A DNA stretch of 64,000 bases from Yersinia mollaretii ATCC 43969 (lineage in GTDB: Bacteria; Pseudomonadota; Gammaproteobacteria; Enterobacterales; Enterobacteriaceae): NCBI RefSeq assembly GCF_013282725.1, contig NZ_CP054043.1, forward strand, positions 2,976,001 to 3,040,000. The letters are read 5' to 3'. Made by a program: the position numbers and the translations under genes. Positions 13,306 through 56,557 of the stretch are shown here, one piece after another; the stretch's first letter is position 1, and each line of letters begins with the position of its first letter. Below the pieces are notes generated by a model, which worked only from the letters and a program-made list of their open reading frames with translations, did no database searches and was not told the origin of the DNA.

Positions 13306-13689
13306 CTGTGATTGAGTTAATATTATTCAATTGCGCCCTGTGCTTTCGTTTTCTATTTAACAAATAAGCTAAAAATTAACTATTCAAAATAATTAATGAC
13401 AATATTTTGTTATCCTTAGAATGGCTTTATTTACAGTAACTGGTTGTTATTGATTGTTTTTCTAAAGTCAGACGGCAATTTTTTGTTGTTTTGATGCCAG
13501 AAAAGGATCACCAAAAAATGAAATTCACCATTTTTTCTGAACGGAAAGGCGTATATTAATTTTATGGCAGGCTAATAAAATGCCCATGAATAATCGCGCT
13601 GTTATAACAGTGTAAATAAAGAGATAAATTAGATAACGAAATAATAAATTAAATAACAGAATCTACTGTTTTAAGTATTTGTAGTTACT
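13306..13689. other. cob operon upstream control region
   Basis: A 384-base AT-rich stretch between pocR and the cobalamin riboswitch, without a gene. It contains ACTATTCAAAAT (13379-13390) and, six bases on, the 18-bp sequence ATGACAATATTTTGTTAT (13396-13413), both also present in the pdu control region. The cob promoter should lie between these and the riboswitch, but no convincing -35/-10 pair could be fixed by eye. Confidence 0.65.
13396..13413 (+). promoter_or_regulatory. Candidate PocR site upstream of the cob operon
   Basis: Reads ATGACAATATTTTGTTAT on the plus strand, identical to the minus-strand reading of 10791-10808 upstream of pduA. In each case it points toward the operon it precedes. 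An 18-base exact match in two co-regulated promoters is unlikely by chance in about 1 kb of control DNA; assignment to PocR is inference. Confidence 0.5.
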
Positions 13690-13870
13690 GATAGGGTCAT
13701 GTTATGCGCTAAAGCATAACTGGGAAGGGGGTGACAATCCCCCGCAGCCCCCGCTGCTGTGATGCTGACGAACCCGCTGTTACCACTGATCCATCGGATT
13801 GGGAAGGTGCGGGGGAGAATGACGCTAAGCCAGAAGACCAGCCAGATCGGTAAAAGATATTCAACTCCTT
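13690..13870 (+). promoter_or_regulatory. Cobalamin (adenosylcobalamin) riboswitch
   Basis: The leader of the cob operon contains the conserved core of a B12 riboswitch: GGGAAGGGGGTGACAATCCC then GCAGCCCCCGCTGCTGTGATG (13730-13764), a GGGAAGGTGC segment at 13801, and the B12 box AAGCCAGAAGACCAGCC at 13827-13843. It would turn down cob expression when adenosylcobalamin is plentiful. Boundaries are approximate. The expression platform is the hairpin at 13942-13963. Confidence 0.95.
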
Positions 13871-39179: not shown

Positions 39180-40154
39180 ATGGATAATTTTCAAAAAGAG
39201 ATTGAGGAGAGAACTAATCTCACCTCATCAAACCGGTTTGAGCTGTTGCTGTTTCGCTTGGGCGAGTCGCAAGATGAAGAGAAATCCGAGCTGTTTGGCA
39301 TCAACGTGTTCAAACTACGTGAAATTGTGCCTATGCCGACCCTGACCAAGGCGGCGGGTATGGTGTCGCCAATGATGGGGATGGCGAATATTCGTGGGGA
39401 GATTATTCCTGTGATTGATCTTCCGGCGATTGTCGGCTGTGAGCCAAAAACCGGATTAAATATTCTGCTGGTGACCGAATATGCCCGCAGTACTCAGGCA
39501 TTCGCGGTGGAGTCGGTCGACGATATTGTCCGCCTCGAGTGGAGCCAAGTGCTGGCGGCCGACGCGGGGGTTAAGAGCCGTAATATCACCAGTATTGCTC
39601 GGCTGGATAATGACACCGCAAGTAATCGTCTGGCTTTGGTGCTGGATGTTGAACAGATTTTGTATGACATCATTCCCGCCAATCGTAATGTTCAAATCGA
39701 CAGCACCAAAACCAAGGCATTTGATCTGAAACCCGGTTCTGTTGCCATTGTGGCGGAAGATTCTAAGGTGGCCCGTTCGATGCTGGAACAAGGGTTGAAG
39801 ATGATGGATATTCCTGCCGTGATGCATATCACGGGTCTGGAGGCGTGGAATAAGATTCGCAAGATGGCCGATGAGGCGAGGGCAGAGGGCAAGCCTATCT
39901 CGGATAAAATCGCTTTTGTGTTAACTGATTTGGAAATGCCAGAAATGGACGGCTTTACATTGACGCTAAATATTAAACGCGATGAGTTCCTGAAGCATAT
40001 TCCGGTGATTATCCACTCCTCGTTGTCGGGCAGTGCAAATGAAGATCATGTCCGCAAAGTGGGGGCGGATGCTTATGTGGCAAAATTCGAAGTCAATGAA
40101 TTGGAAGCCGCCATCCACAGTGCCCTAGATTCAAAGAAAGCCCTGAACGGGTAA
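39180..40154 (+). CDS. cheV: Chemotaxis coupling protein CheV
   Basis: A 324-residue hybrid with an N-terminal CheW-like domain (about 18-155) that couples receptors to CheA, and a C-terminal receiver domain (about 185-315). The CheW part shows ELFGINVFKLREIVPMP and MANIRGEIIPVIDL; the receiver has VAIVAEDSKVARSML and the phospho-acceptor region VLTDLEMPEMDGF. Ribosome site GGGGA precedes the ATG. Isolated from other chemotaxis genes in this window. Confidence 0.94.
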   Translation: MDNFQKEIEERTNLTSSNRFELLLFRLGESQDEEKSELFGINVFKLREIVPMPTLTKAAGMVSPMMGMANIRGEIIPVIDLPAIVGCEPKTGLNILLVTEYARSTQAFAVESVDDIVRLEWSQVLAADAGVKSRNITSIARLDNDTASNRLALVLDVEQILYDIIPANRNVQIDSTKTKAFDLKPGSVAIVAEDSKVARSMLEQGLKMMDIPAVMHITGLEAWNKIRKMADEARAEGKPISDKIAFVLTDLEMPEMDGFTLTLNIKRDEFLKHIPVIIHSSLSGSANEDHVRKVGADAYVAKFEVNELEAAIHSALDSKKALNG

Positions 40155-40171
40155 TCTATCCTCCTGTTTTG

Positions 40172-40211
40172 GTCTCTAAGCTATTGATCTGCATTACAAT
40201 GGCTTAGAGAC
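40172..40211 (+). terminator. Hairpin after cheV
   Basis: GTCTCTAAGC (40172-40181) pairs perfectly with GCTTAGAGAC (40202-40211) over a 20-base loop that itself contains ATTG/CAAT. It lies 17 bases after cheV. There is no T run, so it may be a transcript-end stabiliser or a bidirectional element rather than a simple intrinsic terminator. Confidence 0.5.
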
Positions 40212-40278
40212 TGGACTCACCCTGTGATGGCAAGGGTTCAGTCAAAAGCTAGCACTGGCGCAATGGCAGAAACCCCAA

Positions 40279-40284
40279 TATAAT
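40279..40284 (+). promoter_or_regulatory. Promoter -10 element of the ABC-F leader transcript
   Basis: A perfect TATAAT, about 45 bases before the leader ORF. The -35 region (around 40256-40261) is poor, which would fit a weak or activated promoter. Assigned by eye. Confidence 0.5.
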
Positions 40285-40324
40285 CTCTTTATTCATTCAC
40301 TAACGCTATTTAAGGAGGATTACT

Positions 40325-40408
40325 ATGTTGACCCGTGAATTGTTTCTTTTTTCACTCGTCTTTAGTGATCGTGATGGCTCAAGCATTACTGGTATCGTGC
40401 TGCGATAA
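40325..40408 (+). CDS. Putative 27-residue leader peptide upstream of the ABC-F gene
   Basis: An ORF of 27 codons preceded by a near-consensus ribosome site, AAGGAGGA (40312-40319), five bases from the ATG. The product begins MLTRELFLFSLVFSDRDGSS and ends in GIVLR. It has no recognised homologue in my memory. Its 3' half encodes the left arm of the hairpin GCTCAAGCA/TGCTTGAGC (40377-40385 with 40411-40419), and its stop codon lies in that hairpin, so translation would disturb the fold. The ribosome site is far better than that of the following gene, suggesting the peptide is translated to regulate it. Confidence 0.65.
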   Translation: MLTRELFLFSLVFSDRDGSSITGIVLR

Positions 40409-40512
40409 CCTGCTTGAGCGAAGCTAACTAACACTCTGAGAACTTCCCTCCAGCTTACTGGTTATCGTCAGTTTCTTTGACGATCGGCATCTCTATGCCT
40501 GTAAAACTTGAG
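40377..40512 (+). promoter_or_regulatory. Candidate translational attenuator with alternative hairpins
   Basis: CGATAACC (40403-40410) can pair locally with GGTATCG (40391-40397) or, with all eight bases, with GGTTATCG (40460-40467). The latter segment is also the left arm of ATCGTCA/TGACGAT (40464-40470 with 40478-40484). CTCAAG (40378-40383) can pair with the local CTTGAG (40413-40418) or with CTTGAG at 40507-40512, which covers the weak ribosome site of the ABC-F gene. These alternatives are mutually exclusive. Confidence 0.55.
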
Positions 40513-40518
40513 TAAGCC

Positions 40519-42276
40519 ATGACCACATTACTTTCTACACAATCTGTCTGTTACGACAACACCTTCGGCCCACTGCTGGCTGAGATCTCTTTTGGCCTGA
40601 AAAAAGGCGACCGCATTGGTCTGATAGGCCATAACGGCAGTGGCAAAAGTACCCTGCTAAAAATCCTCAGCGGCGATCTGCCTGCGACTTCTGGCACGAT
40701 CACCACCGCCAACCAGTGCTTGGTGGCTCGCGTTGAACAACATCTGCCCGCCGCACTGGCTGATTGCACTCTGTTGGAGGCAGTGCTCAATCATCTACCC
40801 AACAGCCTGCATCAACCCGAACGCTGGCAAGCCGAAGTTTTACTGGTCAGTTTGGGCTTCGACGAAGCCGCTTGGGCGCTGACCGCCGGGACATTGAGTG
40901 GAGGGCAGCACACACGCCTGCTATTGGCGCGGGCGCTGATTCGTCAACCTGATTTGCTGTTGCTGGACGAACCCAGCAACCATCTGGACCTGCCCACACT
41001 GCTGTGGTTGGAGCAGTTCCTACTGAATTGGCTCGGCAGCTTTGTGCTGGTTTCCCATGACCGCAGCTTGCTGGACCATGTCACCAACTGCACTTGGATC
41101 TTACGCGACAAAAATCTACAGTTCATTCGGATGCCCTGCACCTTGGCGCGACAGGCGCTCGCGGAGAAAGATATCGCGGATAGCCATCGCCGTCAGGCCG
41201 AGCAGAAGGAGATTGATCGGGTGGCAAAAAGTGCCAAACGGCTGGCTATCTGGGGCAGCGTGTATGACAACGAGAAGCTGGCGCGCAAGGCCAAGCAGAT
41301 GGAGAAACAGGTCGATCGACTGAAGGATGAACAAACCCAACTGACGGCGGGTAACCAGTGGCAGTTGCGCCTAAACGGCGAGGCGCTACCGGCAGATCGG
41401 GTGCTGGCACTGTCAGCTTTGCGGGTGCGGCCTGCACCACTGGCTCCGGTACTATTCGAGCTGGATCAGTTGCGAGTAAAAAGCGGCGATCGCATTGCGT
41501 TGGTGGGACGTAACGGCTGCGGTAAATCTTCACTGCTGCACTGTTTGTGGCAGGCATTTAGCCAGTCAGAGGCCGCCGACGCAGGCGTGATGTTTCATCC
41601 CAAAGTGCGGGTCGGCTACTATGATCAGAGCCAGCAACAGCTACGTGATGAGGAGACATTAATTGAGGCGTTAGCGCCGTTCGCTTCGCTAACGGAAGAT
41701 CAGCGGAAAATGGCGCTCATTGGTGCCGGATTCCCCTATATCCGACATCAACAGCGGGTGAATACGCTGAGCGGTGGCGAGCGCTCGCGATTACTGTTTA
41801 TCGGCCTAACGCTGGCGAACTACTCGCTATTGCTGCTCGACGAGCCAACCAATCACCTTGATATGGAAGGTAAAGAGGAGCTGGCGGAGACGCTGAAGAC
41901 ATTCAGTGGCGCAGTGTTATTGGTCTCCCATGACCGGGCATTGATTGAGCAGAGCTGTAATCGTTTTTGGCTCATCCATCAACAGCGGCTGGAGGAGTGG
42001 CATGATATGGAGCCGGTTTACGCCATTTTGGCAGACAAATCGGCTCCCACGACTCTCCCGACGGCAACGCACTCAGCAGTAATGTTGCCCGCCGCAATGC
42101 AAGCAGAAGAAACACAAACGGAAAGTGAAGAGGAGCGCCTGTTGGCGACACTGTTGGATTTGGAAAGCAAACTCGCGGAGGATCTGGCGCGTAAACCCAA
42201 GCATCAGAAACTTGAGTTGCAACGGCAGTGGCAGCAGCAGATTACGCAACTTAATTCGCAGCTAGGGTTGGCGTAA
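40519..42276 (+). CDS. ABC-F family ribosome-associated ATPase
   Basis: A soluble 585-residue protein with two ABC domains and no membrane segment. First domain: Walker A GHNGSGKST at residues 37-45, signature LSGGQHTR near 126, Walker B LLLDEPSNHLD near 147. A charged linker (about 210-275, EQKEIDRVAKSAKRLAIWGS onwards) is the segment that in ABC-F proteins reaches into the ribosome. Second domain: GRNGCGKSS near 331, LSGGERSR and LLLDEPTNHLD. The C-terminal tail is helical. It is not clearly EttA, Uup, YbiT or YheS, so it may be an antibiotic-protection type; this is inference. Confidence 0.88.
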   Translation: MTTLLSTQSVCYDNTFGPLLAEISFGLKKGDRIGLIGHNGSGKSTLLKILSGDLPATSGTITTANQCLVARVEQHLPAALADCTLLEAVLNHLPNSLHQPERWQAEVLLVSLGFDEAAWALTAGTLSGGQHTRLLLARALIRQPDLLLLDEPSNHLDLPTLLWLEQFLLNWLGSFVLVSHDRSLLDHVTNCTWILRDKNLQFIRMPCTLARQALAEKDIADSHRRQAEQKEIDRVAKSAKRLAIWGSVYDNEKLARKAKQMEKQVDRLKDEQTQLTAGNQWQLRLNGEALPADRVLALSALRVRPAPLAPVLFELDQLRVKSGDRIALVGRNGCGKSSLLHCLWQAFSQSEAADAGVMFHPKVRVGYYDQSQQQLRDEETLIEALAPFASLTEDQRKMALIGAGFPYIRHQQRVNTLSGGERSRLLFIGLTLANYSLLLLDEPTNHLDMEGKEELAETLKTFSGAVLLVSHDRALIEQSCNRFWLIHQQRLEEWHDMEPVYAILADKSAPTTLPTATHSAVMLPAAMQAEETQTESEEERLLATLLDLESKLAEDLARKPKHQKLELQRQWQQQITQLNSQLGLA

Positions 42277-43806: not shown

Positions 43807-43882
43807 TGGCTCCTCTGACTGGACTCGAACCAGTGACATACGGATTAACAGTCCGCCGTTCTACCGACTGAACTACAGAGGA
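43807..43882 (-). tRNA. tRNA-Asn (GUU), copy 1
   Basis: On the minus strand the 76 bases start TCCTCTGTAGTTCAGTCGG, have anticodon GTT within the loop CTGTTAA, the T arm CTGGTTCGAGTCCAG, and end GCCA, with the CCTCTG/CAGAGG acceptor stem intact. Yersinia asn tRNA genes are integration sites of the high-pathogenicity island; this copy is unoccupied, with the 3' end CCAGTCAGAGGAGCCA followed by TAT. Confidence 0.97.
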
Positions 43883-56481: not shown

Positions 56482-56557
56482 TGGCTCCTCTGACTGGACT
56501 CGAACCAGTGACATACGGATTAACAGTCCGCCGTTCTACCGACTGAACTACAGAGGA
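56482..56557 (-). tRNA. tRNA-Asn (GUU), copy 2
   Basis: Identical in its 76 bases to the copy at 43807-43882, with the same orientation, the same downstream terminator and the same first 20 or so upstream bases (GCGAATAATAGCGGGG region), which include the tRNA promoter -10 (TATTAT on the minus strand). Confidence 0.97.

Follow-up and report, generated by a model that had tools for sequence, protein, structure and literature searches.

A candidate leader-peptide translational attenuator upstream of an ABC-F ATPase gene in Yersinia mollaretii and its relatives

In the four-segment scheme of ermC, a stalled ribosome frees segment 2 of the leader RNA for pairing with segment 3, and no terminator is needed. 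Here we report a locus of comparable build in Yersinia mollaretii ATCC 43969, located in a 64,000-nucleotide stretch of contig NZ_CP054043.1 (hereafter the window; its host genome comprises 4.60 Mb in one contig), where a short open reading frame (ORF) precedes the gene of an ABC-F ATPase. The likeness to ermC and its leader ErmCL (PMC10219788) lies in a leader ORF preceded by a ribosome site of its own and in 1:2 and 3:4 pairings that hide the downstream start, which for the present locus are predicted. The differences are that the target here is an ABC-F protein and that of ermC a methylase, that the leader is 27 codons long, is conserved at codons 10-16 and is modelled to respond to stalls at about codons 13-20, that the sequestering domain contains two extra hairpins, and that the system occurs order-wide, mostly on chromosomes. 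The ABC-F gene is probably under the control of a four-segment, ermC-like translational attenuator with a leader peptide; a ribosome stall, an inducer and a protective function of the gene product are what we infer in addition.

Leader ORFs also lie 5' of Gram-positive ABC-F genes, namely vmlR (upstream ORF MIN), cplR (upstream ORF MR[I/M]), vmlR2 and lsaA, and the locus resembles the translation-attenuation part of these systems, in which stalling is drug-induced (PMC9226507, PMC10201436). As those sources present them, their leaders have three to four codons and are stalled after initiation, whereas here the leaders have 25-30 codons and the modelled stall falls in mid-ORF; vmlR and cplR furthermore use transcription attenuation, whereas no terminator was found in the window. 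MsrDL is comparable in that nascent-chain-dependent stalling governs an ABC-F gene, msrD, the corresponding stall being a modelled one here, and it differs in its six codons, its stall at the stop codon, its intrinsic terminator and its place in a mobile macrolide operon (PMC10314930). In Escherichia coli the upstream ORF toiL is likewise an enterobacterial leader proposed to unmask a downstream ribosome site upon drug stalling, but it has eight codons, its target topAI belongs to a toxin-antitoxin system, and its response to several inhibitor classes has been shown experimentally (PMC12121999). The distribution of the window gene matches the genera listed for the PAF1 subfamily in PMC6723617, the main text of which does not contain the word 'leader', and in the accessible text of the open-licence literature we found no description of a leader for this ABC-F gene family (subscription papers and preprints were outside the scope of the search). 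Set against the described ABC-F leaders, the new elements are hence the long leader, the modelled mid-ORF response window, the apparently terminator-free four-segment switch and the order-wide conservation in Gram-negative bacteria.

The leader lies within the 364 bp that separate a CheW/response-regulator gene (39180-40154) from the ABC-F gene, a gap that holds a candidate promoter, an AAGGAGG site, the 27-codon ORF and inverted repeats reaching the ABC-F start. A sequence-only reading of the window had singled out this ORF, with its near-perfect ribosome site and an overlapping hairpin, as a candidate attenuator of the ABC-F gene. All the pairings that it quoted are found at the coordinates given there. 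The ORF, MLTRELFLFSLVFSDRDGSSITGIVLR followed by a TAA stop, occupies positions 40325-40408, and its Shine-Dalgarno sequence AAGGAGG, which is kept in homologues, lies at 40312-40318; both are read directly in the DNA and, like all features of the leader and the ABC-F gene given below, are on the forward strand. The proposal of an attenuator gains comparative support from two sides, selection on the leader peptide and covarying stems that exclude one another.

The association of leader and gene is close. Among the best 80 of 190 ABC-F homologues found in public genomes, all 80 have a leader of 25-30 codons with its own ribosome site about 190 nt upstream; they come from Yersinia, Rahnella, Ewingella, Serratia, Hafnia, Pantoea, Erwinia, Enterobacter, Citrobacter, Kosakonia, Cedecea, Buttiauxella, Dickeya, Morganella, Rouxiella and other genera. 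Within Yersinia the ABC-F gene is present in 9 of 25 genomes, and the leader and paired segments are kept in all nine, which is the opposite of the non-conservation that the sequence-only reading had named as fatal to it. An order-level set of 394 genomes (homologues taken at E up to 1e-100) contains a homologue in 47 and the leader in 44 of these, made up of 26 of the 29 most distant, 17 of 17 others and the window itself. The three leaderless exceptions (L151-L153) have ABC-F proteins that are merely 38-41% identical and lack the layout. Two of them, L152 and L153 (genomes of 6-7 Mb, homologues 38-39% identical), have a different 22-codon ORF, MKLSQLAFARYLSNLR..., with an AAGGAGG site about 300 nt upstream of the gene; its FARYLS resembles the leader motif discussed below, and the ORF is possibly an independent leader. 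In a plasmid collection with 52 records listed, the leader is present in all ten gammaproteobacterial records examined (Pantoea three times, Vibrio twice, Photobacterium, Klebsiella, Proteus, Morganella and Aeromonas), and a Sinorhizobium record of the same collection (36% identity) has no clear leader. Plasmids of Ewingella, Rahnella and Pantoea that carry the gene measure 330-930 kb, and a 50.6-kb record of Morganella morganii has it too; some other 'plasmid' records, from Klebsiella, Proteus and Aeromonas, are chromosome-sized.

A covariance model (R1) built from 52 sequences matches 39 of the 394 order-level genomes, once each, and all 39 matches end at, or no more than 14 nt from, the ABC-F match (coordinates compared by eye); at the threshold used, it has no match 5' of any other gene in these genomes. 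Eight homologue-bearing genomes are missed by R1, the three distant leaderless ones and five with a leader. Comparison across genomes shows this putative leader to be linked exclusively to one ABC-F gene, and the leader with its predicted switch is an order-wide feature rather than a Yersinia-specific one. Of 13,800 dinucleotide shuffles of the homologous regions, ten contained, at the matching distance, an ATG-started ORF of 25-30 codons led by AGGAG, against 69 of 69 real regions; because those 69 had been gathered as leader-bearing, the fair comparison is with the unselected 80 of 80 homologues. The idea that the locus is chance or decayed, functionless sequence could draw on two Yersinia genomes, G009 (L006) and G021 (L018), which retain a leader piece and the hairpin region without an intact ABC-F gene. 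ABC-F 3' remnants come after these pieces, however, so they look like deletion scars, and the order-wide conservation and covariation contradict an explanation that we regard as hardly credible. Because of the same remnants, the two genomes were also rejected as proof of a free-standing leader; their ABC-F losses are apparently separate from each other.

Selection on the leader was examined in a wider collection. The near set of 86 regions was reduced to 82 non-identical ones, and the final 109 leader loci comprise 83 near and 26 distant ones, the three distant leaderless loci being left out; an identity filter brought these to 69. The leaders of the 109 loci have 27 codons in 80 cases, 28 in 16, 26 in 11, and 25 and 30 in one each. 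In Rahnella laticis (L065) the usual stop codon of the leader is lost and the ORF is three codons longer; in an Enterobacter asburiae strain (L106) the leader is intact and the ABC-F reading frame stops after 244 codons, and this locus was excluded from the protein set, as L129 was from A2. Pairwise counts over 69 distinct 27-codon leaders (568 close pairs, which are non-independent) gave a ratio of nonsynonymous to synonymous change per site (pN/pS) of 0.55 for codons 2-17 (shifted frames: 0.74 and 1.06) and of 2.2 for codons 18-27. Parsimony counts on the ABC-F protein tree (78 sequences, 27-codon leaders only) placed the signal at codons 10-16, with 48 synonymous and 57 nonsynonymous changes where 31.1 synonymous ones were expected (omega ~0.5, p 5.5e-4). 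Omega was 0.89 for codons 2-9 and 1.68 for codons 18-27, and the synonymous-conservation check proposed for all 27 codons points to selection at codons 10-16 and not at codons 2-9 or 18-27.

The selected stretch reads S-[H/L]-x-[F/L/Y]-[G/S]-[D/N]-R in most relatives and keeps a constant distance from the stop codon. Related stretches stand at an equal distance from the stop in Proteus (SHFFGNR), Aeromonas (SARLFG) and Vibrio and Photobacterium (PR[FL][FY]G, with differing residues after the G), and the candidate arrest motif, placed at codons 10-16 of the common leader form, is S/A/P-H/R/L-x-F/L/Y-G/S-D/N-R. The conserved GIVLR end of the peptide was considered as an arrest motif and rejected; it is best read as an RNA feature, because codons 18-27 show a nonsynonymous excess and coincide with the hairpin H1 described below. 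Single-sequence folds of many Enterobacteriaceae show an extra small hairpin at leader codons 3-12 (TGTGAA...TTCACA), with co-changes seen by eye, which may place the N-terminal codons under additional RNA constraint. The constraint on RNA rather than peptide at codons 18-27 would suit a structured RNA that answers a ligand, a protein or a small RNA, the ORF being incidental. Against this very improbable alternative stand the presence in all 80 homologues of a leader ORF preceded by its own ribosome site, the selection on codons 10-16, and the lack of any Rfam match to the region, either at the gathering score or at E up to 10.

The RNA that follows the selected codons can be divided into four segments. 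Segment 1, the 5' arm of H1 (GCTCAAGCA, 40377-40385), is perfectly complementary over 9 bp to TGCTTGAGC at 40411-40419, a hairpin already noted in the sequence-only reading; 99.5% of alignment cells of this outer helix are paired, and three of eight pairs show double changes. An inner 5' arm, GGTATCG at 40391-40397, has CGATAACC (40403-40410) as its partner (87.4% of cells paired, double changes at two of seven pairs). Segment 2 (40403-40419), which joins CGATAACC and TGCTTGAGC, forms the 3' arm of H1 and has segment 3 as its alternative partner. Segment 3 (40453-40467) consists of GCTTACT (40453-40459) and GGTTATCG (40460-40467) and would pair with segment 4 in the OFF state or with segment 2 in the ON state, and segment 4, AGTAAGC at 40511-40517, lies directly 5' of the ABC-F start, where the weak ribosome site would be masked by segment 3 (87.4% of cells paired, double changes at three of seven pairs in the 52-sequence alignment). 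Two further hairpins belong to the sequestering domain: H2 (40464-40484; ATCGTCA 40464-40470 with TGACGAT 40478-40484), which competes with the 2:3 pairing, and H3 (40486-40499; GGCAT/ATGCC, arms 40486-40490 and 40495-40499; 95% of cells paired, double changes at three of five pairs), which was not on the earlier list.

Unguided folding with RNAalifold of alignment A1 (52 of the 69 regions; L090, which has an insertion, and 16 more distant rows were excluded) recovers H1, H2 in a shifted register, H3 and the sequestering helix 40453-40459/40511-40517 (unguided core GCTTA(C)/(G)TAAGC), which masks the ABC-F ribosome site. On A1 the OFF structure has 92.3% of 1658 cells paired and double changes at 12 of 32 pairs, a count that no shuffle reached (0 of 500, mean 7.2), while slid controls gave 28.6-37.2% paired cells and 0-7 double-changed pairs; its covariation exceeds the controls on four of five measures. 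Co-changes from A-U to G-C occur in nine sequences in H1 and in 12 in H3, and in two Rouxiella loci (L101 and L115) the sequestering helix is rebuilt with different letters. The competing 2:3 pairing is paired in 94.2% of cells (inner helix 98.6%), with double changes at 3 of 15 pairs, fewer than in the OFF structure, against 1.4 in shuffles (reached by 19 of 500). By comparison, the predicted 1:2, 2:3 and 3:4 stems are shown to covary and to be mutually exclusive, and the exclusive pairings that the first reading had listed, of CGATAACC with either GGTATCG or GGTTATCG and of ATCGTCA with TGACGAT, are present with covariation in support.

That reading had also let CTCAAG (40378-40383) pair with CTTGAG at either 40413-40418 or 40507-40512, next to the ABC-F start. 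Both sites exist, but the second pairing, 1:4, is less general: it is paired in 95.1% of cells with little covariation (two of seven pairs against 0.7, reached by 22 of 500 shuffles), and in one clade of Yersinia (L084, L017) two mismatches weaken it. Covariation gives no support to 1:4 as the sole OFF pairing; it is retained as a second OFF fold because 27 of 52 equilibrium folds give it a probability above 0.5, a value that 3:4 passes in 17. The idea that the ABC-F start is under control is supported in that a covarying helix would mask the start region, but the main masking helix, between segments 3 and 4, had not been listed, and 1:4 is the alternative to it.

A leader of this kind might instead govern intrinsic or Rho-dependent termination before or within the ABC-F gene, in the manner of vmlR and msrD. 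Transcription attenuation is known for other ABC-F genes (PMC9226507, PMC10314930), and an untranslated ABC-F mRNA could become a Rho target, as proposed for topAI (PMC12121999). A scan of 40150-40560 for intrinsic terminators, made on the window sequence, found no terminator-like site, and the covarying helix masks the ribosome site itself; we therefore consider such a mechanism quite unlikely. Without an intrinsic terminator in the window, control would most likely be exerted at translation.

The ABC-F gene (40519-42276, with its ATG at 40519) encodes a protein of 585 amino acids with two ABC_tran stretches. Of 197 matching NCBIfam models the best is ribo_prot_ABC_F, the general model for ribosomal protection (329.6 bits); the models for YheS-type, Uup, YbiT-type and EttA proteins rank below it, and none passes its cut-off. 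Certain PRK-numbered models are here taken to be the YheS-type and YbiT-type ones. Two ABC ATPase domains and a helical linker are found by domain search and in the predicted structure (predicted local distance difference test, pLDDT, 87.6). In Foldseek comparisons VmlR2 and PoxtA rank first, human ABCF1 is first by Z, and YheS, YbiT and EttA are close; structure is no proof of a resistance function, as resistance and housekeeping ABC-Fs score alike. Named records of the gene come from Vibrio, Enterobacter, Klebsiella, Serratia and Citrobacter, and a nucleotide search of 5426 E. coli genomes, the only species searched within Escherichia, found none that covers 80% of the Enterobacter hormaechei gene. 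PAF1 is described from Vibrio, Enterobacter, Klebsiella, Serratia and Citrobacter and not from Escherichia, and is predicted, by phylogeny and patchiness, to be a resistance factor 'worthy of investigation' (Murina et al. 2019; PMC6723617). From this match in distribution, the window protein is likely a member of the PAF1 subfamily.

In the proposed mechanism, ribosomes would traverse the leader under conditions of no stress, and H1 (1:2) would keep segment 2 engaged. Segment 3 would then pair with segment 4 and, together with H2 and H3, form a junction in which the ribosome site of the ABC-F gene, a weak one, is masked (OFF); a second OFF fold predicted for many relatives, with 1:4 surrounding 2:3, would mask the site as well. 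A ribosome held at about leader codons 14-20, most likely by a 50S-binding inhibitor acting on a nascent chain that carries the codons 10-16 motif, would cover segment 1 with its leading edge. Since segment 1 is required for both 1:2 and 1:4, a ribosome covering it would break either OFF fold. The freed segment 2 would pair with segment 3 as soon as this is made and before transcription reaches segment 4, the ABC-F site would stay open (ON), and the ABC-F product would act on inhibited ribosomes. We infer the stall, its inducer and this protective function, and the switch and its codon window are modelled.

The model masks the footprint of a stalled ribosome with a leading edge 16 nt 3' of the P-site codon, a toeprint distance taken from PMC9226507, and numbers stall codons back from the stop, so that -14 corresponds to codon 14 of 27, which lies within the selected stretch. 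On average, the predicted openness of the ABC-F ribosome site is near flat for stalls at -22 to -17 and rises at -15/-14, and the opening window is broad, extending to about -8. The predicted rise is from 0.29 to 0.51 in Enterobacteriaceae and neighbours, from 0.25 to 0.54 in Serratia, from 0.18 to 0.35-0.49 in Vibrionaceae and other distant sequences, and from 0.25 to 0.41-0.49 in the Yersinia/Rahnella group. Compared with stalls at -20 to -17, those at -14 to -8 give a gain in openness of at least 0.1 in 46 of 69 sequences and a loss of that size in none. When transcripts of the 52 sequences are ended after segment 3, the 1:2 pairing exceeds 0.5 in 47 without a ribosome, and 2:3 does so in 46 with a ribosome stalled at -14 and in 42 at -10; in the window, 1:2 at 1.00 without a ribosome gives way to 2:3 at 0.95 for a stall at -14. 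At equilibrium without a ribosome the site is hidden in 44 of 52 sequences, 17 of them through 3:4 and 27 through 1:4.

Several results weigh against this reading. At equilibrium, full-length RNAs without a ribosome have mean probabilities of 0.43 for 1:2, 0.54 for 2:3, 0.31 for 3:4 and 0.52 for 1:4, 2:3 rather than the textbook OFF fold is favoured in 29 of 52 (nested inside 1:4 in 27 of the 29), and neither 3:4 nor 1:4 exceeds 0.5 in eight of 52. The predicted rise in openness is below 0.1 in 23 of 69 sequences, and in Aeromonas-like ones it is only from 0.33 to 0.45 at -14. The window itself responds poorly: in full-length equilibrium folds its openness moves from 0.31 to a mean of 0.34 at -14 to -8 and peaks at 0.51-0.52 at codons -2/-1, where other groups are back at baseline, its 3:4 pairing persists under the stall at 0.84 (-14) and 0.71 (-10), and its partial transcript drops to 0.28 for 2:3 with a stall at -10. 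Another Yersinia genome, G023, fails to switch in partial transcripts (2:3 at 0.03 and 0.18 for -14 and -10). Because the window and G023 switch weakly, the model requires, for Yersinia, that the pairing be trapped during transcription and that the stall fall within narrow limits. Further pair types in the OFF structure are not unusual, as 67 of 500 shuffles reach the count. The tree-based test treats changes as independent, and in it the +1 frame is also depressed at codons 10-16 (0.61, p 0.0098); for both reasons the peptide counts are moderate evidence, and they suggest amino-acid selection on codons 10-16 at that strength. RNA constraint 5' of H1 may contribute to the signal there. Finally, the window protein stays below the ribo_prot_ABC_F cut-off of 380 bits.

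The signal for the same RNA switch could also be a general slowing of translation, through a shortage of amino acids, pausing at specific codons or an endogenous nascent-chain effector, with no ribosome-targeting drug involved. The breadth of the opening window, -15/-14 to about -8, favours this, as any stall there would work. Classical amino-acid attenuators carry a run of one amino acid, however, and the leader peptides here have none; selection is moreover confined to one seven-residue stretch where the switch first responds, and the gene is patchily present within a genus (9 of 25 Yersinia). Patchy presence is used by Murina et al. as a mark of resistance ABC-Fs (PMC6723617), and, on the other side, the toiL response in E. 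coli extends to many classes of inhibitor (PMC12121999). On balance we judge general slowing to be unlikely, if the strongest of the alternatives, and favour a 50S-binding inhibitor as the signal.

Upstream of the leader, a candidate promoter at 40255-40284 combines a weak -35 element (CTGGCG, 40255-40260) with a -10 element TATAAT (40279-40284) that lies 46 nt 5' of the leader start codon. Among 69 homologous regions, 51 have a TA[TC]A[ACG]T hexamer that begins 44-50 nt 5' of this codon; a generic consensus scan called no promoter in the window, the -35 being poor. Elsewhere in the window, a cobalamin riboswitch lies at 13677-13860 on the forward strand (116 bits), and two equal-scoring tRNA genes at 43810-43882 and 56485-56557, both on the reverse strand and about 12.7 kb apart, are possible integration sites or part of a duplicated segment.

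Taken more widely, and with the arguments for and against evenly balanced in our estimate, an ancient, mostly chromosomal, stall-inducible ABC-F system would span the enterobacteria, Vibrionaceae and Aeromonas, in which a leader with an undescribed arrest motif senses a tunnel-binding inhibitor and the PAF1 proteins are the matching ribosome-protection factors, an erm-type, terminator-free Gram-negative counterpart of VmlR and CplR. Leader-bearing homologues occur in the clinical genera Enterobacter, Klebsiella, Citrobacter, Serratia, Morganella, Proteus and Aeromonas, and a stall-controlled leader linked one-to-one to the gene would be independent evidence for the resistance role of PAF1 proposed in PMC6723617. 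If the attenuator reading is true, the gene would be an inducible ribosome-protection factor, the inhibitor that switches the leader on would tell which ribosome state the PAF1 protein handles, and the leader may supply a new natural arrest peptide.

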